Below, piece after piece: positions 26,517 to 64,000 of a stretch of 64,000 bases of DNA. Source of the DNA: Tricholoma matsutake (lineage: Eukaryota; Basidiomycota; Agaricomycetes; Agaricales; Tricholomataceae). The number at the start of each line of letters is the position of its first letter. Position 1 is the first letter of the stretch. The DNA is taken from contig AP026541.1 in NCBI GenBank assembly GCA_026075535.2, positions 10,106,001-10,170,000 on the forward strand, read 5' to 3'. The notes beneath the pieces are model-generated. The model saw only the letters and a list, made by a program, of their open reading frames with translations, was not told the DNA's origin and ran no database searches. Both the position numbers and the translations under genes were made by a program.

Positions 26517-26631
26517 ATGACCACCACAGGTACATTTGAAATAGTCAGGTGCACCAGGCAGAAAGGGAGGAAGCCAGACAAAAATATCTTGAGCACAGAG
26601 ATGATCAGGTTGTAGCCCCTTCAAAGCAGCA

Positions 26632-33791: not shown

Positions 33792-33940
33792 AAAGTTTCG
33801 TCCTGGTTTATCGGACGACAAATTTGGATGGAGGATACAATGTGGGCTTTCGGTAATCTAAGCATACTATACCCCCGGAATATCAATTACACCCTTGTCG
33901 ACGGCGACGTCACGAATCTTCTATCGGCTCTACCTTCCCA

Positions 33941-35474: not shown

Positions 35475-36032
35475 AATTGCCGATCAATGGATGATCGAGT
35501 CATGATCATATCAGCAGTATGCACACTCCCACGGTTCATTAACTGTTATGCATGCTTAGAAAGTAATTTACGGAGTCTGCCCACTGCAGAACCAATTATT
35601 TTGTGCCAAAAGCGATTTGTTTCTGACTGAGAGCGCGCGTATGTGTCTCATCCAACCGGACAATGATCCCAGGCACTCAAATATATTTTTAGCTTTATCT
35701 ACATATGGTAATATATATTTTAGATGTGCTATGGCCACTTGTTGAAACACTACTCCAGGTGACAGCCCACAGGCTTCAAGGAGAACGAGTAAGGTTGTAG
35801 TCGGTAGTCGAATAAACAACCGTAAGACTATGAAAAATAATAATTTAAATAGAAGAGTAGAATAAAAGAGAGCAACCGCAAGGACATGCACATCCCAGCA
35901 CTCGAGTATTTTGTAGGGCATAAACAGGAACGTACATGCAAATGGTGCACATCGGCAATGTGTTATGATGGTACAGAACGAAATTTGTATGGCCAATGAA
36001 AATGGCAGATGGGTATTATACATTTAGTCGTT
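35475..36032. other. Intergenic region between WRS1 and ILV2
   Basis: About 560 bp holding the WRS1 promoter and the ILV2 3' end, since both genes are on the minus strand. AT-rich in the middle; no ORF or element seen. Confidence 0.6.
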
Positions 36033-42572: not shown

Positions 42573-42630
42573 TAGTGATGGCACGGCTCGGCTCGGCTCG
42601 CCCGCGGCGCAGCTCAGGCACTTCAGAGGA

Positions 42631-43623: not shown

Positions 43624-46415
43624 TTGTCAGGGGCAGCCAATCAAAATGATGCTGAGTCACACTTAGTGATGTGCACAGCTCGGCCCAAAGCTGCAAGCTG
43701 GCTGGGGCCAAGCCCAAAAAAGCCAAGCCTGGCTAGGCCATCACGATGGCCTAGGAGGGCCTGCAGCTCAGGCTCAGAGGTTCAAAAGCTGTAAGCTGTG
43801 GCCTGAGCTGTGGCTTTTTGGCAGCAGTTCTGACCTCAATTCACTGACAGATGCTGTGATCACAGACTCTTTTACAACAGTCAGATTGCGAGGAAAAACT
43901 ACAAATGTGAGTAAATCTGCAAACAACTACGAAATCAGACACTTAAGGTTTTAAACTATAGTGTTCAGGTGCAGTAATAATGCCTTTGATAGGGGTTGCC
44001 ATATGAGATGAGTAAACATGTAAGGAAAAGGGAGATGTAGGTACATACAGTGGTCATGAGAGCAATAAAGAATGGTCTGGGACAGTAAGGCAGGTGAGTG
44101 TCGAGCCTGTAAATCCAGCCTTTTCTGTTATACATAAGGCGAGTTCTTTTTTTTCAAACATAAAGTTACACTATGTCAACCGTGACCATGCAGGATAGGC
44201 ACCCATTGAATCCATCCAGCCACCTTACTGCCACTTCCAATGCTGCACAGCCAGCGCCATCTTCTCATCAGGAGAGCATTGCGCAAGCCCAGAGTGCTCA
44301 TGCTGCTGCAGAAGTGCAGAATAATCCACCTGTTACACCAAGTCTCTCCATGACAACTCTGGTCCTGATGCATGTCAATCTTGATGATCAACCAAGATCA
44401 AATGCTGGATCCCTACCAATCACACCAACCACATTGAGTATCCCACCTTCCACTGCCCCACCCTCCGAGAGTGAGAGCAACTCAGACATGCCATCTATGA
44501 CTGCAGCCAAGAAAGGAAAAAATAAACAAAAACAATGCAGAAACTCTTCAGGTGGGGTTTACCAAACCAATCTTTTGATATATCTCTGTTGATCTTGAAT
44601 TCAGGTGCAGATGACACTGCTCAGACTGACAAAAATGGAATGTATCAGGACATTAACGTTATGGATATTGATTCTGATTCAACCGATCCCAAAACAACAA
44701 AGAAGAATAAGAACACAAAAGGTGACATTGATCACTTTTTTGAGCCTGTCAGGCACATCAGGGGGATAAATGTGGATGGCAGCAGTGCAAATCTTGCATG
44801 TAAGTCATTCAGACATGTCAATCAACATGATTTGATCTTGTATTTCATAGGAATGGGGATGATGGCCATAACAAATCTGTTGTCGAGCTTGTGGACGAAC
44901 ATACCACTCTTCGATGGCACATGCCTTCAAAGCATAAGGTAACCAAAATTCTCTATTTCAGTGATTTACATCTGATTCTCGACTCTGGTAAAATCAGGGT
45001 CTCTATTGTCATTGGTGCAAGGCTTCCAAGTTTCTCTTGATGATATCCAAAGATGCAAAGGCAAGGCATGAAGAAGCTACTGCAAATGCTAAGGAGCAAA
45101 CTCAGGACAATAACCACTTCCACCAAGTGAATCCTAAAGACAAGCCTGTGCTGTATTCAGATGAACTTTTCAAGGAAGCTGCAATACAGTGGCTGATCAA
45201 AACCAATCAATTTCATTATATTTTACTTACACACCTCTGAGTCTGATCATTCATGCATACTACAGCCTGTTTCTGCTTTTGAACACCCATCCTTTCAGAA
45301 CATGATTCATGTTGCATCTCAAGCTACTCGTGGTGTCAAGATTCCAAATTGAAAGCAAACTCATGAAGAGATCATTTCACTTTTCAAGGCACAGATGAAT
45401 AATCTTGAGGACTGGCTTAATGTGGGTATTTTGTAATTTTTTGCATAGATCTTGTCACCGTCTGTAAATTCAGAGCAAGTATGTCTCAGGAAGAATCATC
45501 ATGTGTGACGCATGGCAAGCCTCAAACACAGATGGATACTTTGCAGTCACAGGGCACTGGATTGAAAAGCAATCTCCTGGACAGTGGAAACTTGAGCATG
45601 GTCTTTTTGGGTCTTCAAGGATGAGTATGGCACATAATGGCAAACAGTTGGGTCAAGCATTGTTCAAGATTTGTCTTTGTCTTGGTATTGTTCACAAAGT
45701 ATGTCCATCCACAATGTAACTGTGTTTTAAAATTCTTATTGCCATGTAGATTGGTCACATCACCTGTGATAATGCATCCAACAACAGCACTATGCTAGTG
45801 GAGTTTGTGTGATGTTATAAAGACAAAATGGGAGAGCATTTCGATGTACAAAAACAACATATTTGGTAAATCCAATTATTTCTGCAGATCATATTTTCTA
45901 ACGATAGCTTTTGCCCCAGGTGTCTCGCACATATCATCAATCTTGCAACTCAAGCCCTGATCTCAACTAGGTGCAAGGCAAAGTATTATAACCCACACAA
46001 CATTGATGAGCATGCTCCAGATGTTAATGCTGTAGAGCGAGATGAGTTGGGACTGGTATAATGTAATTTCTGTGAAGGTGCACTTTGTAACATCCTTGCA
46101 TGAATTACTCATAATCTATGATCAAGGAGCAATCATCTGCACAGTGCAAGGAGCTATTCCGATTCCTCCAAGCTTGTAAAGGTGTCAGGCTTCCAGTACA
46201 GTTATTGCTTGATATGAAGGTTCAATGGAGCTCAATGTATGTCATGTTGAATTGACCTGAGTCCCAAAAGAAGGTGAATAATGTCATATTGAGTAATGAT
46301 CTTTGTTTCTGATGCATATATGATAGTTTGTTGATGAATTTGTTTATGAGCTTGGGGTTCGCACCAACAGCATTGAGGCATGCAAAAAAATCGATGCTCT
46401 TGCACTGTTGGAGGC

Positions 46416-46841
46416 TGTAAGGGGACTAAGGGGGTGCCCTGTGTGTTTTTCCTATTTTTTATGTTCGTCCCATATTTTTCCCCACCTCATTTCCTTCTAT
46501 TCTTCATTTTCTATGATTTTTCCGGATTTTATTACTAATTTTCCCTTGCTATCATGTTTGTATATGTTGACACTTTTATATTTAGAGGCGGAGTACCCCT
46601 TCCGACACATACCCCTTGGTATGATGTCATTCGGCGGCCTTGATCCGCCTATCTCCGCCTTTTTCTATTTTTAGGTTATATTTGATTTTTGTCGTCTTCA
46701 CATATACTGGGCATCAGCAAGGGGATCCTTAGAGTTTTCTCTTCGGATTTCCCTTTGCTAGGTGCGCCCCCAATGCCTGTATTATGTAGTATAATTTTAA
46801 CTTCGGATTTCCCTTTGCTAGAGGCTTAGGTTGCCCTTATA
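46416..46841 (+). repeat. Element F 5' LTR
   Basis: Starts TGTAAGGGG and ends GCCCTTATA, so the outer ends are inverted TGTAAGGG/CCCTTATA, with TA in place of the usual terminal CA. A 21-bp segment occurs twice inside (46741-46761 and 46801-46821). Confidence 0.95.
46677..46741 (+). promoter_or_regulatory. Element F LTR promoter: TATA-like box and predicted RNA start
   Basis: TATATTT (46677-46683) lies about 50 nt upstream of AGAGTTTTCT (46731-46740), which is complementary to the primer-binding site and is therefore the likely RNA 5' end. Confidence 0.5.
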
Positions 46842-46843
46842 GT

Positions 46844-46853
46844 AGAAAACTCT
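46844..46853 (+). promoter_or_regulatory. Element F self-priming primer-binding site
   Basis: AGAAAACTCT starts 2 nt after the LTR and pairs over 10 nt with AGAGTTTTCT at 46731-46740. Confidence 0.72.
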
Positions 46854-47007
46854 CCCCTAAGGCCCGAAAATCGCGAACGCGCTGCCCAAAATAGGCAGGT
46901 ACGGACTGGACGACGCTTCCCAAAGCTCCACAGAGTCCCTACACACCGTTCCAGATACTCTCGCCTTTATTGCGCCGCCATTTTCGCCAAACGCGCTCCC
47001 TAGCGAC

Positions 47008-48126
47008 ATGGACGCATCAGAACGCTTCGACGCGCTTGAAAGCGACGTTTCCGGAATGCGCGCGCAAATCGACTCGCTTAAATCTACGATTGAAAACTTC
47101 GTTAGGACCCTCCAGGCTAACCCTACGACTAATAGTTCCCCCTTCACGACTCCAAGCGCACCCAACAACGATGTTTTGCCAAACGCGTCCACTAAGGAAC
47201 GTGCCCAGATCAAACCGTCCCCCCCCGCCGAATTTAATGGTGCACGTGCGCAGGGACGTGCATTCCTTAATTCCTGTGAGTTATACATTAGTCTCCAGTC
47301 GCATCAATTCGTCGATGAGGCTGCAAAAATTTATTGGGCCTTCACATACATGAAATCTGAACGCGCCTATCTCTATGTGGACCGTATCCTACGTCAAACT
47401 AAAGAACTCGGTTCTCTACCTTTCTCCACTTGGGGTGACTTTCGAGCTGAGTTCGTACGCCACTTCTGCCCCCTCAATGAACGCCACCGAGCAGTGACAC
47501 GACTTGAGTCATCCACTTACCACCAGGGACGTCGATCCGTGGACGACTATATCGATGAGTTCAAGGATTTGGTGGACATGGCAGGGTATGGGAGTGGGTT
47601 ACCAGTGGTGGTGAAGTTCCGACGGGGGCTCAACCGAGAAATTCAGGACCAGATTGCACAGATGTTGGAAGGGCGCCCAGCGGACGATGATATCCTTGCT
47701 TGGTATGAAGCTGCTTCACTCTGTGATGAGAACCGACTCACAAATGCGGCGTTTAATGCTGCATTCCGTGCTCCAACTACCACTCATACACCCTACACCT
47801 TCAATCGAAGCCTCCCCCGCCCTAACCCCATTCCTGCTCGTCAAACTCCCACACCAGCCGTCAATATCCCAGTACCAATGGATGTTGATGCAGCCCGCAG
47901 CCGTGCACGTAAGTTGGATCTCTGCTACCGTTGTGGGGAACCTGGACACAGGGCTGGAGCGTGTCCCCATCGTCAGGATATCCGCATGCTCACCCCCGAG
48001 GGACGAGACGAACTCCTGCAAGATCTGTTGGCACTTGTAGATGTTGAGGAAGCGAAGGATCAAGTTGCAGAGGAGGTTAAGCTGGAAGTTGTAGAGGAGC
48101 AGGATTTTCCTATTCGCAGCGAGTGA
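47008..48126 (+). CDS. gag: Element F Gag (372 aa)
   Basis: Capsid and nucleocapsid of element F. Residues 1-35 form a heptad-like helix (FDALESDVSGMRAQIDSLKS). The retrotransposon capsid domain runs about 65-240 (QGRAFLNSCELYI, FTYMKSERAYLYVDRIL, TRLESSTYHQGRRSVDDYI). The zinc knuckle CYRCGEPGHRAGAC is at about 310-323. The stop TGA at 48124-48126 overlaps the pol frame, which is -1 relative to gag and open from about 48080, an overlap of roughly 45 nt. No classic slippery heptamer was seen, so the way pol is expressed is open. Confidence 0.95.
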   Translation: MDASERFDALESDVSGMRAQIDSLKSTIENFVRTLQANPTTNSSPFTTPSAPNNDVLPNASTKERAQIKPSPPAEFNGARAQGRAFLNSCELYISLQSHQFVDEAAKIYWAFTYMKSERAYLYVDRILRQTKELGSLPFSTWGDFRAEFVRHFCPLNERHRAVTRLESSTYHQGRRSVDDYIDEFKDLVDMAGYGSGLPVVVKFRRGLNREIQDQIAQMLEGRPADDDILAWYEAASLCDENRLTNAAFNAAFRAPTTTHTPYTFNRSLPRPNPIPARQTPTPAVNIPVPMDVDAARSRARKLDLCYRCGEPGHRAGACPHRQDIRMLTPEGRDELLQDLLALVDVEEAKDQVAEEVKLEVVEEQDFPIRSE

Positions 48127-51100
48127 ATCGTACGCCCTCACTGCCTGTCCATAACCGCTTTGAAGTCTTGTCAGTTGAATCCCTGGAGAATGAATCCATT
48201 TCTGTGACTGCTCCCCTCTCTGACCCTTCGAAGTTGGCTAAAGACGTACCTGCTCTCCCCATCTCTCCTTCTACTCCACGTCCCAAAATTAAATCATGGG
48301 AGCGTAAACTACCACGCAAGTATATTGTGGCATCCACTCCCTCTGCACATTCCTTAAACCTAGCCATCGAACTGCAGACGACCGACACTGGACAGATACT
48401 CGGTGTTTCTGCGCTCCTGGACTCTGGTGCGACTGGTCTCTTCATCGATTCCCATCTGGTACAACAACATCGTCTAAATACTCGCTCACTCTCACGTCCG
48501 ATACCTGTATATAACGTGGATGGATCCCCAAATGAAGCTGGTGCCATCCGAGAGGTTGCAGACCTGGTTCTCCGTTACAAAGATCATAGTGAGCGTGCCC
48601 TTTTTGCTGTCACTCAATTAGGAAAGCAAAAGGCGATTTTGGGATATCCATGGCTTCGAGACCATAACCCAGAGGTCGACTGGCGCACCGGGGAGGTTAC
48701 CATGAGCCGATGTCCATCCCGCTGTCGGACGTGTTTCACAGAAGCCAGGCAAGAACGTCGTGGACAGAAGGCGGCAATACGACGAACTCAGAAGTGTCGT
48801 GCTGGACCCCTGCCTATACCTGAAGTGGAATTGGAAGGGGTTCCTGATCTAATACCGGACTCGGATGATGATGATGAGGACCCAGAGGAAGTGGAGGAGG
48901 GTGATCGGATCTTCTACACTGCGATTCGCTCGTCGCATGAGGTGTGTGCCACATCGAACATATCCCAACGCCTCGCCGAGGCCTTCCACAAAAACAACGC
49001 TGCTAAATCCTCTACTAACTCCTTACTCCCTCATCTCCATGAGTTTGAAGACGTGTTCTCCAAGGAGTCATTTGACTCTCTTCCTGCGCGTAAGCCATGG
49101 GATCACGCGATCGAACTCACCCCCGGCGCAACCCCTTCATCCTGCAAGGTCTATCCTCTCTCTCCGGAGGAACAACGGCAGCTTGACCAGTTCATCGACG
49201 AGCACCTGGCCTCTGGACGTATTCGACCATCGAAGTCACCCATGGCCTCTCCCTTTTTCTTTGTCAAGAAGAAGGATGGCTCACTTCGACCAGTTCAAGA
49301 CTACAGAAGACTCAACAACATCACGGTCAAAAATTGCTACCCACTACCCCTCATCTCCGAACTCGTAAACCAGCTCCGTGGAGCCCGATACTTCACCAAG
49401 CTCGATGTCCGTTGGGGCTATAATAATGTGAGGATAAAGGAGGGAGATGAGTGGAAGGCAGCCTTTCGTACCAACCGTGGTCTTTTTGAACCGCTTGTCA
49501 TGTTCTTTGGCCTTACTAATAGCCCTGCCACCTTTCAGACCATGATGAACGACATCTTCCATGACCTCATCCTCGAAGGCGTTGTCTGCATCTATCTCGA
49601 CGACATCCTCATCTTCACTCGCACAGTTGAAGAGCACCGTCGCATCACGCGCCTCGTCCTAGAGCGACTTCGACGGTACAAACTCTACCTTCGTCAGGAC
49701 AAATGCGAGTTCGAAAGGACCAAGATCGAGTACCTCGGCCTGATTATCTCGGAGGGTCAAGTGGAGATGGATCCTATCAAGGTAAATGGGGTCACAGCTT
49801 GGCCTACGCCCACGAACAAGAAGGAGGTGCAGTCTTTCCTGGGCTTCATCAATTTTTATCGGCGTTTTATCAAGGATTTCTCACATCATGCACGACCGCT
49901 GTTCGACTTGACAGGAAAGGAGGCATGGAGGTGGGATAATGCACAACAGGAGGCGTTCGAAAAGCTTAAGGAGATGGTCACTTCCGCTCCGATCCTTACC
50001 TTTGCTGACGATTCGCGTCCTTTTCGTGTAGAAGCCGACAGTTCTGACTTTGCGACGGGCGCTGTGTTGTCTCAGCAGTCTCCGGAGGACCAGAAGTGGC
50101 ATCCTGTTGCGTTCTACTCCAAAAGCCTTAGTGCTGTAGAGAGAAACTACGAGATCCATGACAAGGAGATGTTGGCGATAATGCGTGCGCTTGAGGAGTG
50201 GCGACACTTCCTCGAGGGTGCCCAACACAAGGTGGAAATTTGGACGGATCACAAGAACCTCGAGTACTTCATGACGGCCAAGAAATTGAACCGTCGTCAA
50301 GCTCGTTGGTCCCTGTATCTATCTAGATTCGACTTCTCCTTGCACCACCGTCCGGGTCGCAGCATGGGGAAGACCGATGCCCTATCCCGACGTGCAGACC
50401 ATGGGGATGGCAGCGGTGACAACCAAAACATTGTGCTGTTGCAGCCAAACCTGTTCACCATTCGGGCACTGGAAGGCATCGTACCCCAGGGCGAGGAGCG
50501 GGACATTCTACGTGACATTCGTCGCGCAAACCGTAGCGGTTTACATGAGGATGTTGTCGCCCGAGCTGTTAAAGAACTGAGGAAGGGATCGACCCTTTCC
50601 TTACGTGCGGCAGAGTGGGCTGAAAAGGAGGACTTGTTGTATTTCAGGGATCGCATCTATGTTCCCAATGACCCAGACCTTCGCCGGCGCATCATATCCC
50701 AACACCATGACTCACAGATTGCTGGCCACCCCGGACGCTGGAAGACCTTGGAGCTCACCTCACGGAACTATTGGTGGCCACAAATGTCACGGCTCATTGG
50801 TCAGTATTGTCGCACTTGTGACCTTTGCTTACGCACCAAGGTCCCTCGTCGCAAGCCTATTGGTGAGCTACACCCTCTTCCTGTTCCAGAGAGTCGTTGG
50901 GATGTCGTCAGCGTCGACTTTGTGGTGGAATTGCCAGAGTCAAACGGGTTTGATGCGGTGATGTGCACAGTTGACTCAGTGGGAAAACGCGCTCACTTCA
51001 TTCCCACTCACACCACTGTCAGTGCCCTAGGTGCCGCTCGACTCTACCTCCACCACGTGTGGAAGTTACATGGACTTCCTGGTGCCTTCCTCTCGGATCG

Positions 51101-52025
51101 TGGCCCTCAGTTCATGGCAGAGTTCACTCGTGAGCTGTACCGACTCCTGGGGATCAAACTCCTCGCTTCAACTGCTTATCACCCACAAACTGATGGCCAG
51201 ACGGAGCGAGTCAACCAGGAACTGGAGCAGTACATCCGCCTCTTTGTCAATGAACGCCAGGACGATTGGGATGATCTCCTTCCTTTGGCCGAGTTCGGAT
51301 ACAACAACCATGTCCATGCTTCCACTCAACAGACCCCTTTCCTCTTAGACACTGGACGACATCCACGCATGGGATTTGAACCTCGCCAAACTCCCTCACA
51401 CATCGAGACAGTGAATGAGTTCACAGAACGCATGAGGGATAGCTTGGAGGAGGCAAGGGCAGCCTTAGCAAAGGCGAAGGACGACATGGCGCGATTTTAC
51501 AACCAGCGCCACTCCCCAACCCCTCAGTACAAGGTTGGTGATCGAGTTTATCTTGACTCCAGTGACATCTCCACTACACGTCCATCCAAGAAACTCGCTC
51601 ATCGCTTCTTGGGACCTTTCCCCATTGTCAAGTGCGTTGGAACACATGCCTATCGTCTACGCCTCCCAGCCTCCATGTCCAGACTCCATCCCGTCTTCCA
51701 TGTCGTCAAATTGCTTCCAGCTCCCCCAGATCCGTTCCCGGGACGCCATTCACACCCACCACCACCACCTACAGTGATCGAGGGAGAACCCCAATATGAA
51801 GTCGAGTCAATCTTGGACAGCCGTTTGCGTCGAGGAAAACTCCAGTATTTGGTACATTGGAAGGGTTATGGGTATGAGGAGAACTCATGGGTCGAAGAGT
51901 CTGACGTAAATGCCCCTCGGTTAATCAAGGAATTCCACCGACGGCACACTGCTGCACCGCGTCGCATTCAAGTCACGGACTTTGGTCGTATACGATTTCG
52001 AATGCATCGGGGCGATGCATCTTAG
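48123..52025 (+). CDS. pol: Element F Pol: protease, RT, RNase H, integrase, chromodomain (about 1300 aa)
   Basis: A single open frame. Rough residue positions: aspartic protease LLDSGATGLFIDS at 98; RT from 330, with SPFFFVKKKDGSLRPVQDYR at about 375 and the catalytic YLDDILIF at about 490; RNase H EADSSDFATGAVLSQ at about 637; integrase zinc domain HHDSQIAGHPG...CRTCDLC at 860-900; DDE core VDFVVELPES at 928, LSDRGPQF at 989, TDGQTERVNQELEQ at 1022; chromodomain YEVESILDSRLRRGKLQYL at 1225 with LVHWKGYGYEENSW. All catalytic residues are present. GTG at 48123 marks where the frame leaves gag; real translation probably comes by frameshift or re-initiation. Confidence 0.96.
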   Translation: MNRTPSLPVHNRFEVLSVESLENESISVTAPLSDPSKLAKDVPALPISPSTPRPKIKSWERKLPRKYIVASTPSAHSLNLAIELQTTDTGQILGVSALLDSGATGLFIDSHLVQQHRLNTRSLSRPIPVYNVDGSPNEAGAIREVADLVLRYKDHSERALFAVTQLGKQKAILGYPWLRDHNPEVDWRTGEVTMSRCPSRCRTCFTEARQERRGQKAAIRRTQKCRAGPLPIPEVELEGVPDLIPDSDDDDEDPEEVEEGDRIFYTAIRSSHEVCATSNISQRLAEAFHKNNAAKSSTNSLLPHLHEFEDVFSKESFDSLPARKPWDHAIELTPGATPSSCKVYPLSPEEQRQLDQFIDEHLASGRIRPSKSPMASPFFFVKKKDGSLRPVQDYRRLNNITVKNCYPLPLISELVNQLRGARYFTKLDVRWGYNNVRIKEGDEWKAAFRTNRGLFEPLVMFFGLTNSPATFQTMMNDIFHDLILEGVVCIYLDDILIFTRTVEEHRRITRLVLERLRRYKLYLRQDKCEFERTKIEYLGLIISEGQVEMDPIKVNGVTAWPTPTNKKEVQSFLGFINFYRRFIKDFSHHARPLFDLTGKEAWRWDNAQQEAFEKLKEMVTSAPILTFADDSRPFRVEADSSDFATGAVLSQQSPEDQKWHPVAFYSKSLSAVERNYEIHDKEMLAIMRALEEWRHFLEGAQHKVEIWTDHKNLEYFMTAKKLNRRQARWSLYLSRFDFSLHHRPGRSMGKTDALSRRADHGDGSGDNQNIVLLQPNLFTIRALEGIVPQGEERDILRDIRRANRSGLHEDVVARAVKELRKGSTLSLRAAEWAEKEDLLYFRDRIYVPNDPDLRRRIISQHHDSQIAGHPGRWKTLELTSRNYWWPQMSRLIGQYCRTCDLCLRTKVPRRKPIGELHPLPVPESRWDVVSVDFVVELPESNGFDAVMCTVDSVGKRAHFIPTHTTVSALGAARLYLHHVWKLHGLPGAFLSDRGPQFMAEFTRELYRLLGIKLLASTAYHPQTDGQTERVNQELEQYIRLFVNERQDDWDDLLPLAEFGYNNHVHASTQQTPFLLDTGRHPRMGFEPRQTPSHIETVNEFTERMRDSLEEARAALAKAKDDMARFYNQRHSPTPQYKVGDRVYLDSSDISTTRPSKKLAHRFLGPFPIVKCVGTHAYRLRLPASMSRLHPVFHVVKLLPAPPDPFPGRHSHPPPPPTVIEGEPQYEVESILDSRLRRGKLQYLVHWKGYGYEENSWVEESDVNAPRLIKEFHRRHTAAPRRIQVTDFGRIRFRMHRGDAS

Positions 52026-52036
52026 AGAGGGGGTGA

Positions 52037-52462
52037 TGTAAGGGGACTAAGGGGGTGCCCTGTGTGTTTTTCCTATTTTTTATGTTCGTCCCATATTTTT
52101 CCCCACCTCATTTCCTTCTATTCTTCATTTTCTATGATTTTTCCGGATTTTATTACTAATTTTCCCTTGCTATCATGTTTGTATATGTTGACACTTTTAT
52201 ATTTAGAGGCGGAGTACCCCTTCCGACACATACCCCTTGGTATGATGTCATTCGGCGGCCTTGATCCGCCTATCTCCGCCTTTTTCTATTTTTAGGTTAT
52301 ATTTGATTTTTGTCGTCTTCACATATACTGGGCATCAGCAAGGGGATCCTTAGAGTTTTCTCTTCGGATTTCCCTTTGCTAGGTGCGCCCCCAATGCCTG
52401 TATTATGTAGTATAATTTTAACTTCGGATTTCCCTTTGCTAGAGGCTTAGGTTGCCCTTATA
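52037..52462 (+). repeat. Element F 3' LTR
   Basis: Read base by base it is the same as 46416-46841 and is followed by GAGGC. Identity of the LTRs indicates a recent insertion. Confidence 0.95.
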
Positions 52463-53798
52463 GAGGCTGAGTGGGATCATGTCGGAACATTCTGTAGTCT
52501 TCTCCGTGTGCATATCTTAGATCCATGGCATCACCTTCAGCTTACTGATACCTGCAACACTTAGCATGCTGACAAGGCTCAGCAAGCCTTCTCATCTGCT
52601 CAAACTTTTCAATGCCATCCCCACCATTGAAGCTCTTCATGGTGCTTGGTCTACCCAAATTGACAAACTCAAGTATCGTCCATTCAAGGAGGCACTTTAT
52701 GCTGCAACAGACAAACTCAATGAGTACTATGAGAAGACTGCAGAGTCTGATGCCCACATTCTCGCGATGTGTACATGTTCATTTTAACTAGGCTTTTTTT
52801 CAGCTGATAACCTAGTCTGTAGTGCTACACCCCAAACACAAAATGGCTCACTTCAAAAAACACTGGGACAAGAAATTACAGCAAGATGTCATAAAGCTGG
52901 GTCAGAAAGTAGTATGTCGTAATTACTCAGACTTGTGGATTAATACTCAAATGCTGCAACAAAGTTTAAAGAACGTTACTGAACATCTTCAGGCAGCTGC
53001 AGTGGCCTCTTTGACAGGCACCCCCCCATGGCCTACTAAAAAGCAGAAGACACATAACCCTCTTGCATGATCTTGATTCCAATGACTCTGATTCTGATGA
53101 TGCCAGTGACAATGAAGCATCAAGTATACCATGGCTAGTCGAATATGAGCGGTATATGAATACAAATGATATCATCCCTCCTGGAATGACTATTGTAGTG
53201 TGGTGGGGGGTGCATCAACTTTCTTGAGATTTGTTCCATGACAATGACTTGTTTCTTAGTTAAATATGCCTCGTTATCCTATCACTGCTTCACTTGCCCA
53301 GGACTATCTTGTAGTCATGGCATCATCAGTATCAAGTGAGCATGCATTTTCTTTGGCTGGCCTTACCCTCAGCAAGTGTCACAATCAATTGCAAGGAGAT
53401 GTTGTTGAAGCTTTACAGTGTTTGAAGTGTATGTATCACAATGACCTAATCTTTCAGGAAGTTGTTGTAGCTACAGAGGAGGAGGTAGACCTTGAAGGAA
53501 TGGATCTAGGATTGGCAGGGGATGCTAGTATGGTTGAAGAAGAGTTTACATAGGATCAGTTGCTTGCTGATGATGAGGATATGTAATACACTGATAGGTA
53601 GTGAACAGTCAGTTAAATTCTTCAATTTCTACACTGTTACAAGCAGGAAAGCCATGGCTTGGGCCTGAGCTGAGCCTAAGCCAGCCTAGAGCCATCTTCA
53701 CATCTCAGGCCTGAGATTTCAAAAGCCTGAGCCCCTCAAAGCTGAGCCAAAGCTATGGCTTTCAGGCTGAGCTGAGCCATCACAACACTAGTCACGCT

Positions 53799-54452
53799 GA
53801 GCAGCACTGAGCCAGCTAAGCTGATTGAGATTGCCCAAAGTTGTGGGTTTGCCATCCTAGTTGTATTTATGCTTCAGTTATACATTTTAACCATCAAATA
53901 GGTGGTGTAGACCATTATTACAAAAGAAACAAGTCATACTATCGAGTTTTGCACAGATCAGTATCTTTGATGAGATTATTTGGCTATGTTTATGTCCTTG
54001 TACCTATTACAAAACATGCTTGTGAGATGGCTCTGGAGAGTAGGGTATAACAATATACATTCAAAATAGCAGTAGGGACTCCTACAGAGTGTTTTATAGT
54101 GTTTTAAGAATGTTTAAAGCCATCCAGCTGCTCTGAATTTGAGGCAACTTAGGGCATGGCTTGAGTGGCTCTGGGTGGCTCTGAGCTGGGCCATTGGCAA
54201 CACTACCTGTCATTTAGGCATGTCACCATCCCCATCGCCCCCATTCATTGTCACCCATTGGTGTCCACACCACATCAGCAAACCCTGATTTTCCCACAGA
54301 GACTGATATGATCAGTAGAGAGCTGTAGAGCATTGTAGAGAGCTATAGGAAGCCCTGATCTGTGCAGTACCCCACAGCTGTGTGCATATCTGAGGTATTT
54401 GTCTAGTTCTATACAGTATAGTCTCCAATAAAGGAGTGCTACAGAGTGTATT
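53799..54452. other. Region between the hAT transposon and element E
   Basis: No gene. A hAT-like right end GGCCATTGGCAACACTA closes at 54205, with subterminal GGCTCTGAGC-type repeats before it, but no matching left end with a target duplication was found. AGAGCTGTAGAGCATTGTAG-type short repeats lie at about 54318-54345. Confidence 0.45.
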
Positions 54453-54646
54453 TGTAGTGAGTCGAGGGGGATCTCCTTATATCACATACCAAAAGAACAC
54501 GAATAACATATATATTTCGTGTAATGGTAGTGGTAAAAAAAAGATGCTTATCTAAATTGAGGACTGGTCCCTATATAGGGACCAGTCAGGCCAATAGCAA
54601 GTAATTATAATATGTACAAATGTGGGTCAAGCCCCAGGTCACCACA
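54453..54646 (-). repeat. Element E 3' LTR (proposed, 194 bp)
   Basis: On the minus strand it starts TGTGGTGACC right after the purine tract and would end ACTCACTACA at 54453; the two ends are imperfect inverted repeats. The partner LTR is outside the window, so the outer limit is a proposal. Confidence 0.55.
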
Positions 54647-54787
54647 CCCTCCCCCTTAGGCTTTGTCTAGGGGAGAAGCATAATGTTTTGAGTAAGAAAA
54701 TGACCTCGAAGAGTATCGTCAAATATATGGGTATTGTCAGGGTGTGACAAAGCAGTCAGATTGGTTTATAAAAAAAATGCAACGACC

Positions 54788-57091
54788 TCATTCGAGAGGG
54801 TCATCGGGGTTATGGGTCTCATTGAGATCCAATGAGGATATGTGGGACTCATCGTGGGTCGCCAAGGATTCAGGGATATTGAGATCCACCATCAGGAGGT
54901 GGACCTCAGGGGTGGTAACAGGTATCTTGCACTTGTGGTTGGGCACCAAGGAGAGAAGTTGGCTCTCGTGGTTGGAAACCGATAAGTGCAGTTGGGAGAT
55001 AGGTGTCTCTGGACAATTCCCCAGAGTGGTGTCAGTTATCTGCCCTTCATCAAAAGGGACCGAAGGAAAGTGTGTTTTCTCAATGGTGAGTGTTTCACCA
55101 TTGGAGTCGGAGACAGAGTCGGTGGTGTCACCGTTGTTGTCCAGGTCTCTAGTATTTTGTGGCTTGGTAGTCACGACAATGGGTTTGGATCTAAAGGGTA
55201 CCTTGGGCCTGTTAGGGGGTATTCCAGCAGCAATACACCATTCCCTCTTCAAGGCCTTCTTTTCGCCTTGAGTCACCTTCTTGATGAGGGGGACTTTGCC
55301 AAACCAACCCTGGTTGGGGTCATCCACATGAGGAAAGCTCGCATGCATGGAAGCGGAGAGTTCACTGGAGAATCCAGAGGACAGAGCAGTGGAAGTCAAG
55401 AATCCAGGGTGGGGTCGCCCTGAATGAGGAGGAGCTCTGCCCCTGGTGGGGATGGTAGCATCTCGTTTCCTTTTCCTTCGTGGCTCCCGAAGAGCCACAT
55501 TGTTAGTCCCAGCGATCCACCACTGGGGTTCAGTCATCAGAGGGACATCCTCTGAAAGAGAGTTGGGAAGTTGCCACAGATGTCACATGACATCTGCAGT
55601 GATAGTAGACTCTTCCAAACAGGAGGAGTTGGCAGTGGCCATTGCTGTAACCCAGCCAACGGTGTAGTGATATCCTTCTCAGACTTCCTCATCCGAGACT
55701 CCCATAGAGGCGAGGTGTCTTATGACATCCTCTAAGGAGACTTGATGGTTGGTAATTGGCATAGGTTGCCGACAGCGTACGGGGGGCAGAGCAAGGTGTT
55801 CCCACTCTTGAATCCGTCGGTACAAGCCCGGCATAGCAAGTACCTCGGCAATACAAAGCGACAAGAGGATTTTGACCTCAGGGGATAGCCCTGAAGGAAT
55901 CTGTTGATGAAGCAGGAGTTGCCCCCTGACATGAGGGAGCAAGACCCTCTGTTCGTCTAACATGGTACCAGGGTGGTGTCTCCACTGGTACAGATGTCAG
56001 TGCATGAACTGTGCCCACATTTCTGCAGAGTCCAGGAGCAAGGGTTGCTCCAGGCGATTTGGATCGTTGAGTCGGTGCAATCCATGCACTGACTGCATCT
56101 CAACGGGGAGCCAACTGGGTAATCTCCAGTGGGCAATGGCATAGCTCATCAGGGGCGTTCAAGCCCCTGCAGCAGTGTCGTTAATGAAGCGCATATACTC
56201 ACACATTCATTCTAGCATGGAATAATTCCTGGAGGTATGGGCCATTCAGGACCAAGTGTCAAATTCCTCAGTGTTCTGAGGAATGGAGGTCGGGACTAGG
56301 CCACGCGGCTTGGAAGCTGCTCACCAGTTCGCTGTCCAGGGAGTGTCAGGCATCAAGGAAATATATCTCGGTGGAGGAAGGTTGGGAAGAGGTGGGTAGA
56401 CCTTGTTCATGTTAACATCCTCGTTGGGAATGACAGGGCACAGAGCAGAAGGTGGAGCAGGCTGGGAAATGGCTTTTGCATAGGAGTTACCCTGAGGCCT
56501 CTCAGGGTAAGGGGATGGCTCACGAGTATGAGCTCGTTTGGAGGATCAGCCCTCAAGCTCCTCTTTCAGGTGCTCATTTTCACTCTCCAGGTTCCAGATG
56601 GTTTCCCAGAGGGCATCAATGTCTTTCTTGTATTCATCATATGCACGTTCGGCTCTGGCTAAGATGCCAGAGTTAATGTTGGCATCTCAACAATCCCTCA
56701 CGTTGAAATATTGTTTATCATGGTCATACACATGGTCATACATGTGTAAAGCATAGCTCTTGCACATATTGCAAGTGCCTCGGTGAAGGACAATGCCCTC
56801 ACCATTGATTCTCCAGCCTTCGTCGGTGGAGGAACTGGCACCAACACCATCTCATCAGTTTTGGTCTTTTCTAGCAGAATGTCTGCTAGAACAGATGACT
56901 TCTTCCATCTCGCCAGGGCTTGGCGAGCAGTGGATCTGAGTGATGTTACTGCTCGAGCCTGTAGGCTTGAGCACTCTCTGCTTCTCCTTCCCCCTTTGAG
57001 ACCAGCCACTTGGGTCAGTCTCATGCATATGGTGAGATTGATTGTTTTCATCCCCCATGGGGTCATCTTCATCTGGTGGTAAACTCGCCAT
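54788..57091 (-). pseudogene. Element E third ORF downstream of pol (about 768 codons, unknown function)
   Basis: One minus-strand frame from ATG 57091 (MASLPPDEDDPMGDE) to 54788 without any frameshift, broken by eleven stops that are all TGA. Seen in order: an acidic start, CNMCKSYALHMYDHVYDH (a CXXC-His region, about 56790-56735), a predicted coiled coil (ARAERAYDEYKKDIDALWE and following, about 56665-56560), a proline-rich stretch, EQRVLLPHVRGQLLLHQQIP near 55950, and a basic RREPRRKRKRD-type patch near 55470. No transmembrane segment or signal peptide. It stands where env sits in retroviruses, but nothing in it resembles an envelope protein. Function unknown. Confidence 0.7.
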
Positions 57092-57204
57092 GGTATAGAC
57101 CAAGCGATGAGGAAGGAAAAAAGAATTGGAATTCCGCTGTACCATACAGCAGCAGAGATTGAAAACATGTAGATGGCCGACGTCACTTGGAATTCACCCA
57201 AGCT

Positions 57205-60200
57205 TTAAGCATGTTGACATGCAGTGCCAGCTGCACATCTTGGCAGACCCTGCCAATCCTCGGCGCCCATAAGTGCCAAGTAAGCATCAAGAGCTGCAAG
57301 TTCATTGCAGTTCGCCAATGGTTCCCAAGTGGTATCACCTAGACTCCACTTAACCTCAAATTGGACATCACAGCCACACCACTTGTGGGCCATAATTTCT
57401 TCGACATACCATTTGGTGTCATCAGGTGCACTGAAGTCATACGCATCTGGGTAACGCCTGTTAGGAAACATGGTGTCGTCGTTGGGATGGTGGGTCTCAA
57501 TAGGCTGACATGGAAATGCTGGTGTAAATGCCAGTGTTTAAGTTCTTTCAGAAGGTCCAACTCATAGTTGGATGTCTCAGGATAGGCTTGTAGGACCTTG
57601 TATGGTCCTACGAATCTAGGCAATAGTTTACTTGTGCACCCTTTTGGTAGCGCTAGGTTTTTTGTGGACAAGTAGACAAAATCTCCTTGTTTGATATCAG
57701 GCTCTTTGCGCAGATGTTTATTAGCATAGTGCCACTGAAATACTCTTCCAGTAATGATGCTATCATGGGCCACTGCCATGTTTCGCAGGGCATTCATTGC
57801 AAACGTACGCACTCTGGGAGGAACACATTCTGTAGAAGGATATTCTTGCATCATACGAGGCAAGAATCCATAGTTGACTTCAAACAGGGCCATCCCCATT
57901 GCCCTGTTAATGGTAGAGTTTATGGCAAACTCTATGAGAGAGAGGAATTTTACCCAATCTTTTTGATTGGACACAACGAATGCTCAGAGAATCTGAGCGA
58001 TTGAACGATTTGCGTGTTCTGTTATTCCATCCATCTGAGGATGGAATGAAGTGGACATAAGTATCTTGATGTCCAAGATACAGTGGATTTCACACCACCA
58101 TTTTGACATGAATTTAGAGTCTCAATCACAAATGATTGAGCCAGGTAGTCCATGCAAATGGACAATCTCCTTCACGAAGATGGGAGATAGTTGTGATGCG
58201 GTCATCGTCATGTTCACCAGGACTAGGTGAACCATGGAAGACAGATGACAGATGATCACCCAAAGGTAGTCAAATCCCTCGGACTCTGGGAAGGATCTGA
58301 TAAAGTCCATTCCAATGGACTCCCATGGTCTCAAGAGAGTGGGGAGCGAGTGCAATTTGCCTCGCAGGGAACAGTATTCACCTTTCAAGTGTATACAACA
58401 CTCGCAAGAATCACAGTATTTCTCGACTTCACACTGAAGTTGAGGCCACCAATACCAACGTCGGATGTACTCCAAAGTTTTGACTGGCCTGAAATGTTCC
58501 ACAATACTGTGGGCCTGCTCAATTATACGACCATGCAGGGTCATACATTTGGAAGTGGAGGTGGGGATGCACAAGATGTCCTCACCACCTTGGTTCTTCC
58601 TCCAGATGAAACTGTTCCGGATGCTGAAATCTGGGTGGTCTCTTGGACTTTCAAGAACCTTCTTGAAAACTCAGTCCTTGATGTATCCTTTCTGGATGTC
58701 ATCATTCAGAGGATCCAACTCTGACATATGGACATGAAGATCAGGTCCCTTAACCAGAGATGCGTAAATCGAGGGGTTTTCCTCCGATTGTGGCTGTCCA
58801 GAAGAAGACGGATCCACACCTTCAGTATTCACAGTCATTCTGGCTGCAGCTACATCCCGCTCTTCAATAAGTTCCTGAAGAGCTCTAAGCTGTTCACCGA
58901 CTCGCTTCTGCTGAGCAGCAGCAGAGCAAGTCTCAATTACTTGATTCTTTAATTTGAGGTGTCGATCCCATGGGAGGTCCTCATGGTTAGGATCGAGTTG
59001 CACGTCTGCAAAGATGTAGTGTTGGACTAATGGGGCATTGTCCCAAGAGTCAAATTGGTAGTAGCAGGACAGAGCATCCACTACTTTGTTTAGTTTCCCT
59101 TTGACATATCTAATGTCAAAGTTGAAATGCAATAGGTACTCCATCCACCGTGTCTGCCCAGCAGAAAGTCTGTGCTGGGTCTGGAAGAATTCCAGCGCTT
59201 GGTGATCGGTGACAATGTGGATCTGTCTACTGATCAGTTTGTCTTCCCACTTGAGGAGGGCCTCAAGTATAGCAATGGTTTCATGCTCAAAGGTACGGTA
59301 GTTCCTTTGAGCATCTGAGAATTTCTTGGACAAGAAACCTGCTGGGCGGCAAGTTTGCCACTCAGGTCCTTGACCATACATCGCACCAGTCCCAAAGACT
59401 GAGGCATCACAGATCACCCAGATTGGCTCAGGTGACTTTGGGTCGATCAGCTTCAGCACCGGTGTTGTGCAACAGATGTCCTTAATCATCTGGAAGCAGT
59501 GATTGTGTAATGGCCGCCATAGAAACGAGGTGCCATTTTTAGTCATTGCAGAGAGTGGACTAGTATAAGCACTGATATCTGGCAAGAAATGAGCCAGATA
59601 TTGCACAAGTCCCAAGAATCTCTGGACTTTGTGATAGTTACGAGGTGTCTTCCACTCTCGTACATGGGCCATCTTGTTGCTGTCTGTGTGCAGCCCGTGC
59701 TCATCAACCATATGACCTAGGCACTCTACCTTTTCAGTGTAGAGCTCACACTTCTCTGCACGAAGGTACAGAGCATGCTCGCATAGTTTGTTGAATACTA
59801 GCTCCAGATGTTTCTGGTGTTTTTCAATTGAGTTACTAAACACGAAGATATCGTCCAAGTACGCATGGACAAATATTCCAATGTAATCTTGGAAGATTAA
59901 ATTCATCAACCTTTGAAAGGTTGATGGTGCATTGCAGTCGCCTTGTTGCATAACCAGGCTTTCATATATGCCTTGAACTGTCAAAAAGGCGGTTTTCCAG
60001 ACGTCATCTGGTTCCACTCGGACTTGCTTGTAAGCATCCGAGAGATCTATCTTTGAGCGATATGTAGCTCAAGCAACATCAAGATTCAAGACAATTCATG
60101 TCTTGATCAGGAAACGGTGTAACATCTTTCACCATATTTGCATTCCTCTTCACGGCGTTAATCACAGTGCGAATCACTCCTGATTTCTTTGGCACCACTA

Positions 60201-61632
60201 GCATTGGAGCAGCTTGCTCCGCTCGAGCAGGGTGCCACCACCCTGCTCTGCAGTATTTTGCTACCTTCTCAGAGAGGGGTTTCCTCATTGAGTCTGGACA
60301 CTTTGGAAGATAGTAATTGTACTTCTTCTTTTTGTCCAACAGTGGGATGTGATGGTTTATCTCCCTAAGGGGAGGTAGTTTGTTGATATCCTGACAAGAT
60401 TGTTTCCACTCTTCTCGAAGACATGGAAGGTCTTTCTTGGAGAGAGGACCTTTTGAGTAGGCCTTGGAGGCCAAGTCTTTGCATATTGCGAAGAGAACAT
60501 TGTTCAGGTCATCAACTTGTTCAGGCAGTAGCACCACAGGAATGGAAGGGTTGAACCCAAAATGTTCAAATTTAGGGCCCTCGGGAAATCAATCCCAAGT
60601 GAATTCTCAGACGAACTCTTCCAATTTGTCCTTGTTATCACTTTCAGGCTTCTTGTCAGGCCCCAGCAATATGGGGTCTGATACTCTCAAGCCTGAAGGA
60701 CGATGTTGAGCCTCAACATCATCCACTTCCTCAATTTCTGCCCTCCTCTGTTTCACAGAGGGAGGCTGGGCCTGTGTAGAACTCGGGACAATTTTGTCCG
60801 GGTCTCTTACTTTTTTAGCGGTCGGGTGCCCACTACAGAGTCACTCATCCTTTGGAGGTTGAGGCTGCATAGCATGCCATCTGGCTTGCATGAAGGTGTT
60901 AGGGCCCTCAATTACTGTATCAAGGCACTTTCCTTTAACGTGTACTTCATCAAGTTCAAAGTCTAGGACTATACCGTGCTTCCTCATAAACATGGTTCCC
61001 AGAATGGCATCATACCTATCAATGTTAACTACATTGAAATAGTGGGTATTTACCACTCCACCAATCTCAAAATTGGTGAAGAGTCCAAAGTTTATCTTCG
61101 AACGGCCACCCACAGTGCCTAATTGTAAAGGCACAGGTTCTTCCAATTCATGAGCCTTCAAGTTCGCTGACATAGTGAATTCTGGTGAGATGGAATTGGT
61201 TGTACAGCCAGAATCAAGCAGTATGTAGGCTTTGAGATTGTGAAGCATCATCTTCGCAACAAAGCATTTGTTATCCTCCTCAGTCTGAGGAGGACATTTA
61301 ATCTTCTTTGAGGATTTCCTCAAAGTAGTCACGCCCCTAAAGCGTGGCTTGTTCTTGAAAAGGCTGTCCATCATGATGCCAAGCTGTTCAGAGAATGATG
61401 GATGTTTATTCTCCATCTCACTCTCTGAGTCTTCCTCAGAGTCAGACACTGACTTGGGCAGACAGGCAGCTATCGGAGTCATACTCTGAGAGAATTTCTC
61501 TGATCGCACCAAAGTGTTCAGTTCCTGAATCATCACAGGGAATACACCCAGTGTCAGACTCGATGTTATACAGTTTGCCCTCAGAGCTGTACTGTGATCT
61601 GTAAGGGATCTCCTCAGATAAGGCTGAACCAT
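57205..61632 (-). pseudogene. pol: Element E pol: protease, RT, RNase H, integrase, chromodomain (decayed)
   Basis: Minus strand: protease LLDSGCTTNSIS near 61215; RT palm with WWHPARAEQAAPMLVVPKKS near 60225 and AYLDDIFVFSNS near 59850; RNase H CDASVFGTGAMYG near 59410 and DAQRNYRTFEHETIAI near 59300; integrase zinc domain and core at 58574-57900 (MDFIRSFPESEGFDYL); chromodomain WYVEEIMAHKW near 57410. Frameshifts near 60090 and 57480; TGA stops at 58671, 58122, about 57984 and others. The frame relation to gag also changes at about 61500. Perfect hairpins occur throughout. Confidence 0.88.
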
Positions 61633-63993
61633 ACTCTGAGGAAGAAATGCCTTTTGAGTCGCTGTGTGTGGCGGTGAATCTCTCTTTCATTGCTGATCGA
61701 GAGTCCAAGCTCTTTTTAGGGCTTGGACCATGCTCATCACATTCCTTGCTACTACTATGAGTAGCAGGTCGATCATTCGAGGAGGCTGATTCTTCTCTAG
61801 CGGTGTACATTTTTGCCATTGGTCTTTGTTGCCTGTACTTTGGGCACTTAGGATCTGTGGAGTAATAAGGGCCTCCACAGTTGTAGCAAGTGGGAGTCTT
61901 GCTTTCACCAGACTTCTTGTCTGGTTTGTTTCCATTAGACCTGGAAGGTTTGCTTCCAGGGAAATGATGTCATGTATCATGACGCTCCTTGTAACGGCGA
62001 TCTTGATCGCTGTAGCTTTGGTGGTCTTTGTCTGGATATTTTGAACCAGATGGTTTAGAGTTATCACAATAATTTTTATCGTGTTTATCATAATGTTCTT
62101 GCAACCATCCATTAGATCTTTCAGGAGAAGGATCCTTCATTTTGGGAGCTTTAGTCAAAGAGGATGTCTTTGACTTTGTGGATTCCATGATACGCTTCTT
62201 TTCATTGAAGCGTTTTCTCATTTTTCCAATTTCCTCCGCCTGACAGGCATAGTGCAAAATATCTCCCACTGAGCTAGTCTCAGTGGAGCATCCTTTGTCC
62301 AGTACAAAGGATATGATATTGTTGGGCAACCCAGTCACCAACTGGGTCTTGAAGGTGAAAGGATCTGGTGCCTGTATCATTCTGGTAGCATAGCACTCCA
62401 GTTTGTGGTAGTAACCCATAACACCTTCTTCAGCATTATAATCGATGTGCCAAAATCTGTCGGTCACATCATGAGTTGCATTCTCATGCATGAACCAGTT
62501 GTATAGGCCGGTTATGACCTCCTTGAAAGTCCAGGCAGCTCGTTGATGGTATGCACTGTCAACACTGTCCTCAAACCAAGTCAAGGTGGTGTTCTCAAGG
62601 AACATCGCCATATACTCAATACGGTCTGAGTCCAGATCTGGACCACATACTTTGTTCACCTTCAGCCAACGAAGGAGGGCGTTCAGCCATTGTTCAAAGC
62701 CTTTGGTGTCTGGTAATCCACCATACTTAGGCAGATTTGGGACATGCGGACCATTCTTACCACTAGTGGTAGGAACTTCAGTCAAGACAGAGACTTTGCT
62801 GTTGATCTGTCTGTAGATCTTTGTATGAATGTCCCTCAAGTATTTTGAGGGTCGAAGGGAACCTTTTCCTTGATAGGAATTGGGATGGGAAGATACAGAA
62901 TATCTACACAAGGATCAACTAGATGAATGCTGTGCCCAGCTACCTTGTCTGTGGTGAGACGAGGTCTTATTAGCAATCTCTTCCTCACTTGGGGAAGAGT
63001 GTTTGGTGTTTTCATTACTTGAGGTGCTATACAACAAGTCAGTGCTACTTTCATCTCCATCGTCACCAGAACCATCGCCATCTGGTGGCCCGTCCTTGCC
63101 TGCATGACTCTGTGCAGGCTTTTTGGACCCTCCTGGTGGGGCTTTCTCTCGCTTATCATTGTGAGAGTTCTTGCTGTTCTTATCCCAAGGATTACCATCC
63201 TTGTCGAAATGAATCCCTTGATCAGGAATCAATGTGGGTTGTCCATCCCGGATATTGCCATCGCGTATCCTCTGGAGGACTAACTTATTGTCAATGTAAT
63301 GTACCTTCTTCTTGGAAGGTACCTCGACCGGTGTTACCGGTGTGGTTGGACATGGGTTAACATGTTCCTGGGAAGGGGACAGTTGCTGCTCCACACGTTC
63401 GGCAGTAGGAGGAGTAGTAGGTCTGGATACAGACCTATGGGAACATTGTCTGGTGTAAGCAAACACCAGATCTTTAAGTTGGATTTCCAACTTAACAGGT
63501 TCAAAGTCCCGGGCATCCCTGGCACGGCCAAGGATATCGGTAGCGAGCTGAGCAAAATGCCAAGATCTGAACTCTTCATCTGACTCATCCTCTCTAGGCT
63601 TCTTGAGAGGTTTCTTCTCTTCACGCCAACATAGTCTTTCATGTTTGTCCATCGGCGTTGGCGGCACTGACAGGGCTAACTCTGCCCATTGGGCAGAGAA
63701 TAGTCTGGGTGTAGTGTAGTATACTCCAGACATTGTTGGGGAAGATCAATATAATTACCGGGGGTGACCCAGTTATTCAGGGACTCTGGAGTTAGTTCAT
63801 CCAGAGGTGAGAGTCCTTGTAACCCCGGATTAGGTCCAGGGGTTGAACGAGCGCTTTGTTGACTACTTTTCAATGAGTTAGATTTCTTTGAGTCGAGGTT
63901 GCTGTCATCCTCGACTGTCACCCGGGCTGTGCAAAGTCCGAGCACAGAGGAATCGATCATTCTTGTAGTGGATATATGTGCTTCAAGGTTCAC
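61442..63993 (-). pseudogene. gag: Element E gag (decayed)
   Basis: Minus strand: an N-terminal Ser/Pro/Thr-rich part (from 63993, frame change near 63730), then EELALSVPPTP-like and acidic segments; the capsid domain at about 62800-62200 (YGGLPDTKGFEQWLNALLRW, TTLTWFEDSVDSAYHQRAAW); a basic linker; and CYNCGGPYYSTDPKC near 61890. TGA codons at 62915 and 61970 interrupt it. The frame continues as a Ser-rich tail to 61442. It may begin beyond the window. Confidence 0.8.
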
Positions 63994-64000
63994 TGCCTGT

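Follow-up and report, generated by a model that had tools for sequence, protein, structure and literature searches.

Short perfect hairpins conserved at silent sites along a Ty3/Gypsy retrotransposon of Tricholoma matsutake

Results

Structure of element E

We analyzed a stretch of 64,000 nucleotides of Tricholoma matsutake chromosome 4 (C4:10106001-10170000; hereafter the window), which carries on its minus strand a Ty3/Gypsy long terminal repeat (LTR) retrotransposon, element E, that is filled with short perfect hairpins. Comparison of E with its copies in the same genome argues that these hairpins are maintained by purifying selection. A protein-domain search of E gave the order gag region, aspartyl protease, reverse transcriptase (RT)-RNaseH, integrase, Tf2-1-like SH3 domain, and a third open reading frame (ORF3). 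This includes the gag-protease-RT-RNase H-integrase series of Ty3/Gypsy elements, gag and the integrase core being assigned by Pfam in a copy, L032. No Pfam match to gag was found in E itself, and none was found for ORF3 (54788-55582; L032:8087-9385). E is decayed, its frames being separated by stops and shifts. Paired LTRs with a 192-bp aligned core are present and 97% identical; one lies beyond the window, and the pair was found once the adjoining 3.5 kb had been added to the window sequence. The parts of E are as follows.

54455..54646, minus strand: 3' LTR of E (aligned core, 192 bp); its partner is at window-equivalent 64397-64588 (locus L041)
54647..64000, minus strand: internal part of E within the window, continuing to window-equivalent 64396 (from LTR positions and protein domains)
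54788..55582, minus strand: ORF3, without Pfam family; an open frame of 433 amino acids in copy L032
57339..57983, minus strand: frame with the Tf2-1-like SH3 domain, downstream of integrase (protein domains)
58122..58670, minus strand: integrase zinc-binding region (protein domains)
58671..60068, minus strand: frame of the later part of RT and RNase H (protein domains)
60841..61686, minus strand: aspartyl protease frame (protein domains)
61970..63745, minus strand: gag region, two adjoining frames (Retrotrans_gag in copy L032)

The RT of E is 31-38% identical to the Ty3/Gypsy frames of element A, the nested element, and element F of the window, and its named relatives come from Trametes, Pleurotus, Leucocoprinus, and others. 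E shares its gag, protease, RT-RNaseH, integrase order with fungal Ty3/Gypsy elements that have a Tf2-1-like SH3 domain, but differs from them in the extra ORF3 and the hairpin array. ORF3 had one homologue among the best 7993 candidates of the protein search, with 56% identity over 37% of the query.

Excess of short perfect hairpins in E

A preliminary description of E had listed 26 hairpins, with about 1-2 expected by chance. All of these are exact in the sequence (26/26), and the list was an undercount: a full scan for perfect stems of at least 8 bp with loops of 1-12 nt detected 39 hairpins in 54788-63920, compared with a mean of 1.35 (SD 0.8) in 20 dinucleotide shuffles. The entire E including both LTRs contained 41 such hairpins and the whole window 74. 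Stems of at least 6, 7, 8, 9, and 10 bp numbered 111, 70, 39, 19, and 7 in E, whereas the shuffle means were 24.5, 5.7, 1.35, 0.3, and 0.1. The preliminary description saw nothing similar in the pol genes of D and F; the stretches taken as elements D (20317-26525; 3 vs 1.15) and F (46416-52336; 1 vs 0.9), delimited from their LTR pairs, lay close to the chance level. The counts in other stretches were 4 vs 2.85 (26526-46415), 2 vs 1.1 (1-4000), 0 vs 0.6 (16001-20300), and 1 vs 0.8 (52337-54787). Among the Ty3/Gypsy coding parts examined in the window, the array was confined to the clade of E.

The excess was not removed by codon-preserving shuffles, a control that the preliminary description had proposed. 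When seven frames of E were each subjected to 40 synonymous-codon shuffles, the RT-RNaseH frame (6 hairpins vs 0.25) and the gag frame 62915-63745 (5 vs 0.32) were among those that exceeded the shuffles, whereas for ORF3 (1 vs 0.22) and 60079-60588 (2 vs 0.25) at least one shuffle had as many hairpins as the real sequence. Taken alone, the ORF3 of E is weak. The counts in L032 were 27 vs 1.3 for gag-pol and 8 vs 0.4 for ORF3. Chance, composition, and codon use are rejected by the two types of shuffle.

The hairpins are limited in size. The stems in excess are of about 6-12 bp, with a slight surplus at 5 bp (109 vs 83), and the longest perfect stem is 12 bp in E and 11 bp in L032. The loops in excess reach a length of about 10 nt in E (14 vs 0.8 at 9-10 nt; 1 vs 1.1 at 11-12 nt), and L032 has an additional surplus at 13-15 nt (7 vs 1.1). 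Perfect stems predominate: L032 contained 48 (vs 1.6), compared with 18 one-mismatch stems (vs 3.65), and bulged stems numbered 2 in E (vs 1.2 expected) and 6 in L032 (vs 1.0). The 76 stems of at least 7 bp are distributed along E at about one per 130 nt. The spacing was somewhat more even than uniform in L032 (coefficient of variation 0.75, P 0.005; E, 0.86, P 0.11), but this was given no weight because the null disregards hairpin length. Long-range pairing was also considered and rejected for E, in which hairpins with 21-80 nt between arms of 7 bp or longer were near chance (38 vs 35.3 expected); these were mildly raised in L032 (36 vs 28.4).

The predicted folding energy was 21.4% below shuffles in E (28 folding windows) and 27.7% below in L032 (27 folding windows), whereas F and D lay 1.6-1.7% and the 27-46 kb stretch 0.4% below. 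No strong motif common to the hairpin arms was found, the words TCAA/TTGA and CTCA/TGAG being raised threefold at most; self-complementarity is therefore the common property of the arms. Within 54000-64000, no Rfam model matched at an E value of 1 or lower.

Hairpins shared among copies of E

Copies of E were sought in the genome of 161,040,721 bases in 13 contigs. The DNA search gave at least 47 matches to E (the best 40 of 303 candidates scored) and the protein search at least 95 RT places with 66-100% identity (the best 94 of 8386 candidates scored). Of 46 loci taken, 32 copies were compared with E: 19 near (g1), 3 intermediate (g3), and 10 far (g2) copies, the last with 76-78% DNA identity to E, divergent L040 included. 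No relatives were found in scans of viral contigs. The far copies equal E in hairpin richness. They contain 84 hairpin centres, of which 46 are present in at least four of the ten copies and 23 in a single copy. Many hairpins are common to the groups and others are group-specific, so individual hairpins turn over between groups. The hairpins of E are given below (stem in bp, loop in nt), where x/y means copies with the hairpin perfect out of copies compared there; rows without counts are from the full scan.

54562..54587, stem 12, loop 2, in LTR (copy comparison)
55081..55103, stem 9, loop 5
55577..55596, stem 9, loop 2
56263..56284, stem 9, loop 4; near 4/4, far 8/8; 90 exact genome sites
56487..56510, stem 10, loop 4
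56662..56687, stem 8, loop 10
56727..56748, stem 8, loop 6 (also copy comparison)
56869..56891, stem 10, loop 3
57590..57611, stem 8, loop 6; near 8/17, far 9/9
57842..57867, stem 8, loop 10; near 0/17, far 1/10
57883..57908, stem 8, loop 10; near 1/18, far 0/10
57914..57934, stem 8, loop 5; near 18/18, far 9/10
58024..58047, stem 9, loop 6; near 11/18, far 0/10
58061..58081, stem 8, loop 5; near 12/18, far 0/10
58121..58140, stem 8, loop 4; near 4/18, far 1/10
58304..58321, stem 8, loop 2; near 8/18, far 0/10
58649..58668, stem 9, loop 2; near 14/18, far 8/10
58859..58883, stem 8, loop 9; near 6/19, far 6/10
59099..59121, stem 9, loop 5; near 16/19, far 9/10; 132 exact genome sites
59249..59268, stem 8, loop 4; near 18/19, far 10/10; 99 exact genome sites
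59283..59314, stem 11, loop 10; near 5/19, far 5/10 over all 11 pairs
59575..59601, stem 9, loop 9; near 14/19, far 0/10 over all 9 pairs
59904..59926, stem 11, loop 1; near 14/18, far 7/10; 45 exact genome sites
60086..60106, stem 8, loop 5
60225..60248, stem 10, loop 4; near 2/18, far 0/10
60702..60720, stem 9, loop 1
61274..61294, stem 10, loop 1; near 4/15, far 0/10
61306..61325, stem 9, loop 2; near 2/14, far 9/10
61703..61728, stem 8, loop 10; near 3/3, far 0/3
61855..61880, stem 8, loop 10; near 3/3, far 9/9
61940..61960, stem 8, loop 5
62153..62175, stem 9, loop 5
62266..62286, stem 8, loop 5
62290..62312, stem 9, loop 5
63301..63322, stem 8, loop 6; far 9/9 (far copies alone compared there); 73 exact genome sites
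63418..63437, stem 8, loop 4
63449..63470, stem 8, loop 6
63474..63495, stem 10, loop 2
63680..63698, stem 9, loop 1
63891..63916, stem 8, loop 10

The stem word of the hairpin at 59099-59121, with its loop left free, was exact at 132 places of the genome, whereas the adjacent non-hairpin word of equal length was exact at 10, a rough contrast because private changes of E depress such control counts. With up to three mismatches, the stem word was found 458 times (control 61) and the neighbouring word 81 and 88 times per strand (controls 211 and 192). In the compared copies the hairpin word was exact in 26/32 and three neighbouring words in 8/32, 0/31, and 21/32, the genome-wide count having been made for the first of these only. 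Contigs 1-4 hold 35 of the 95 related RT places, and the exact stem was recovered at 30 of these; among the 11 relatives there with 66-75% protein identity, 9 had all its 18 bases. Its loop varies among the genome matches shown with letters. Four more stems (59249, 59904, 63301, and 56263) were exact at 99, 45, 73, and 90 places, counted without neighbour controls of their own.

Two further features of the copies were observed. L039 has a second match to one stretch of E, in the opposite orientation, which suggests an inverted duplication inside or beside it. The in-frame stops of related RT copies, judged by eye, are mostly TGA, the codon that CGA becomes when its methylated CpG decays.

Conservation of stems at silent sites

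Third codon positions in stems were about half as diverged as those elsewhere. Since such a raw contrast may reflect the picking of surviving hairpins, we relied on a matched design, in which sites identical in two groups were scored for how often the third group differs. In the main run, stems perfect in g1 and g3 were taken and differences were scored in g2. At third positions 2/63 stem sites differed, compared with 286/1219 elsewhere; the values were 0/60 vs 51/1634 at second and 0/57 vs 81/1549 at first positions. When all g1 stems were used, 5/94 vs 283/1188 third positions differed, and in five further group combinations third-position differences were 2.8- to 9.7-fold fewer in stems. 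Single copies without majority states agreed more weakly: in six triples, the fraction of third positions that differed was 0.08-0.13 in stems and 0.18-0.31 elsewhere, and first and second positions agreed in most but not all triples (14/162 vs 134/1471 at first positions of one triple). When all triples and all hairpins were pooled, third positions differed at 221/2009 sites in stems, 95/464 in loops, 489/2253 in flanks, and 1430/6788 in the rest. The loops are thus not conserved and are free to vary. Since silent sites are conserved in the stems and not in the loops, these sequence comparisons indicate that the short perfect hairpins along the entire E are under purifying selection.

Changes at paired positions

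The preliminary description had proposed to check whether the arms change together in other copies. In most pairs neither arm changes; two Watson-Crick types were present in 20/639 pairs. When each g2 copy was compared with E, double changes made up 127/691 changed pairs, compared with 437/6537 in controls, a 2.7-fold excess to which CpG decay on both arms may have contributed in part. Where a third group also has the hairpin, pairs joining third position to third position were unchanged in 42/48 comparisons and double-changed in 1/48 (control 0.432 and 0.067); for all hairpins, 96/135 were unchanged and 7/135 double-changed (control double changes 98/1470). These comparisons are non-independent and involve at most 39 distinct pairs. 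Since the third-third pairs are unchanged rather than co-changed, ongoing copying from arm to arm is disfavoured and selection is favoured.

Outside CpG, the comparison of g1 with g2 gave 14 G-U, 13 A-C, 10 other, 2 double, and 322 unchanged states, and control pairs gave 906, 1263, 1661, 160, and 11164, respectively, so that G-U is at best tolerated slightly better. Five g2 copies all folded slightly better in the sense strand, each within about two standard errors. Loops of the sense strand were A-rich in E, L032, and L040 (P 0.004, 0.013, and 0.019) whereas L044 did not show this (P 0.49). For A minus T in loops, the contrast between strands was weaker (P 0.20, 0.04, 0.16, and 0.78 for E, L032, L040, and L044) and passed in L032 only (P 0.043).

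Discussion

Proposed function of the hairpins and its limits

From these data we infer that the hairpins have a function in the clade of E. We lean, by a little, toward the view that this Ty3/Gypsy clade is selected for short Watson-Crick stem-loops that would act jointly by folding single-stranded intermediates. Purifying selection would keep local, fully Watson-Crick stem-loops along the whole element, coding parts included, the selected units being stems of about 6-12 bp with loops mostly of 10 nt or less. The hairpins would act collectively and not singly: long single-stranded replication intermediates, namely the genomic RNA and probably the complementary DNA (cDNA) or antisense strand, may fold on themselves and thereby become compact and hard to anneal to, in analogy with the shielding ascribed to genome-scale ordered RNA structure (GORS) in RNA-virus genomes. 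A more far-reaching proposal, which we regard as possible but doubtful, is that the whole coding genome of the clade is selected for hairpins that are effective only if fully Watson-Crick paired and hence work on both strands. If true, a strand-symmetric folding layer would lie over the protein code, in cDNA, antisense RNA, or duplex DNA; in a repeat-crowded fungus it might give general protection from silencing by annealing or from homology recognition.

Several observations weigh against selection for folding of single-stranded intermediates. A number of E's hairpins are perfect in hardly any other copy or in none, and the neighbouring control word exact in 21/32 copies is itself conserved, overlapping another hairpin of some copies. 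The matched contrast is weak in non-coding columns (2/54 vs 54/827). Covariation, at 20/639 pairs, is about equal to that of control pairs. Wobble is not significantly tolerated (14 G-U vs 13 A-C), and the 17 conserved one-mismatch stems in g2 include 2 G-T and 5 A-C mismatches. Sense and antisense strands fold almost equally (-2.16 and -2.12 in E; -2.87 and -2.47 in L032), the difference in nine copies being +0.09 to -0.37 z with a standard error of 0.15-0.20. Finally, GORS pairings are described as poorly conserved (PMC7642675), whereas the stems of E's clade are kept identical across distant families. The lack of a clear G-U excess weighs against sense RNA alone, which should favour G-U; since wobble is not clearly tolerated and the two strands differ little, the acting form could be RNA, cDNA, or duplex DNA.

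Alternative explanations

The near strand symmetry of folding, the lack of a clear G-U preference, the predominance of perfect stems, and the few bulges in E would all be expected if the hairpins were required as DNA, either in minus-strand cDNA or as small cruciforms in the integrated copy. We consider this unlikely, since the sense-strand loops are A-rich in three of four elements (though A minus T passes only in L032), the five g2 copies lean to the sense strand within their errors, L032 has some bulged stems, and there is no known step that demands such numbers of DNA hairpins. The predominance of perfect stems would also fit a neutral process of template switching, in reverse transcription or as DNA is replicated, which creates and repairs perfect palindromes, most of them then being frozen by coding constraint. 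Some hairpins are indeed private (23 of the 84 centres in one of ten far copies), a comparable repeat conversion has been proposed for the mitochondrial DNA of Nematomorpha (PMC6649704), and coding constraint on one arm would freeze pairs of a third with a first or second position. Pairs of two third positions, however, should then co-change near the silent rate, and 42/48 were unchanged with one double change; moreover, D and F of the same window have little or no excess. Template switching is thus improbable as an explanation. Of the two causes offered in the preliminary description, selection for nucleic-acid structure is borne out by the conservation of stems but not loops at silent sites and by the exact stem in distant relatives, whereas the data do not support template switching as what maintains the hairpins; new ones could still arise by it.

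That individual stems retain their sequence across copies and families would also fit a separate functional site in each hairpin, such as a binding, frameshift, or processing signal, rather than a bulk property. This seems very improbable given that the arms have no strong common motif and no Rfam match, that 76 stems of at least 7 bp occur throughout the element, and that individual hairpins turn over between groups. As for chance, base composition, codon usage, or amino-acid constraint, the location of most stems within protein-coding DNA was the one point found in their support; the dinucleotide and synonymous-codon shuffles, the control word beside the hairpin, and the matched codon-position test leave them a negligible probability.

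Comparison with known systems

GORS of RNA viruses, as described in PMC7642675, resembles the array of E in its sequential unbranched stem-loops across coding regions, folding energy well under shuffles, less variable paired sites, and short duplexes. By the method of that study, the folding energy is 15% below shuffles for SARS-CoV-2 and 7-9% for hepatitis C virus; E shows a larger excess, although the comparison is loose because method and windows differ. Unlike GORS, the stems of E's clade are perfect, nearly strand-symmetric, and without clear wobble use, and they are carried by an LTR retrotransposon instead of an RNA virus. The palindromes in mitochondrial coding regions of Nematomorpha (PMC6649704) are likewise perfect repeats in conserved coding DNA, with few imperfect ones and with gains and losses, but they average 43 bp and reach 142 bp, in contrast to the arms of about 6-12 bp here. 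The authors of that paper discuss a conversion process, whereas the silent-site data of E's clade favour selection. Quasipalindrome template-switch mutation, as presented in PMC7202029 and PMC3820800, also makes the arms of imperfect inverted repeats more alike; alone it would not predict slow silent change without paired changes, and the co-change of arms at freely variable sites expected of such palindromes was rare (1/48). The RNA structure of another LTR retrotransposon, yeast Ty1, has been studied (PMC5408680), and the start of that abstract is silent on perfect hairpins over the whole element. No description of a hairpin array in a fungal retrotransposon was found among titles and abstract starts of the open-licence PMC literature, which does not prove its absence.

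Some RNA viruses are known to have dense structure laid over their coding regions, with pairings that drift; here it occurs in an LTR retrotransposon, and because the stems are kept across distant families, the selected base pairs can be read straight from genomes. This makes testable both the purpose of the structure (small-RNA shielding, packaging, recombination, or cDNA handling) and the question of which form, RNA or DNA, selection acts on. A further caution is that silent sites of transposons are not always usable as neutral clocks.

Other structured stretches of the window

E is not the sole hairpin-rich stretch of the window, since 4001-16000 contains 24 hairpins with stems of at least 8 bp, compared with 1.95 in dinucleotide shuffles. 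Ten of these lie in the two LTRs of the nested element (5267-5476 and 10119-10328) and seven in a non-coding array (13872-14287). The LTRs of the nested element (5224-5523 and 10076-10375) have five hairpins apiece, with the loop GGCTT in nine of the ten and GACTT in one; this tandem array differs in kind from that of E. In the non-coding array, all seven hairpins are perfect, and several have GC-rich stems followed by T runs. The first part of element A (1-5223) has few perfect hairpins and a folding energy 9.2% below shuffles (14 folding windows).

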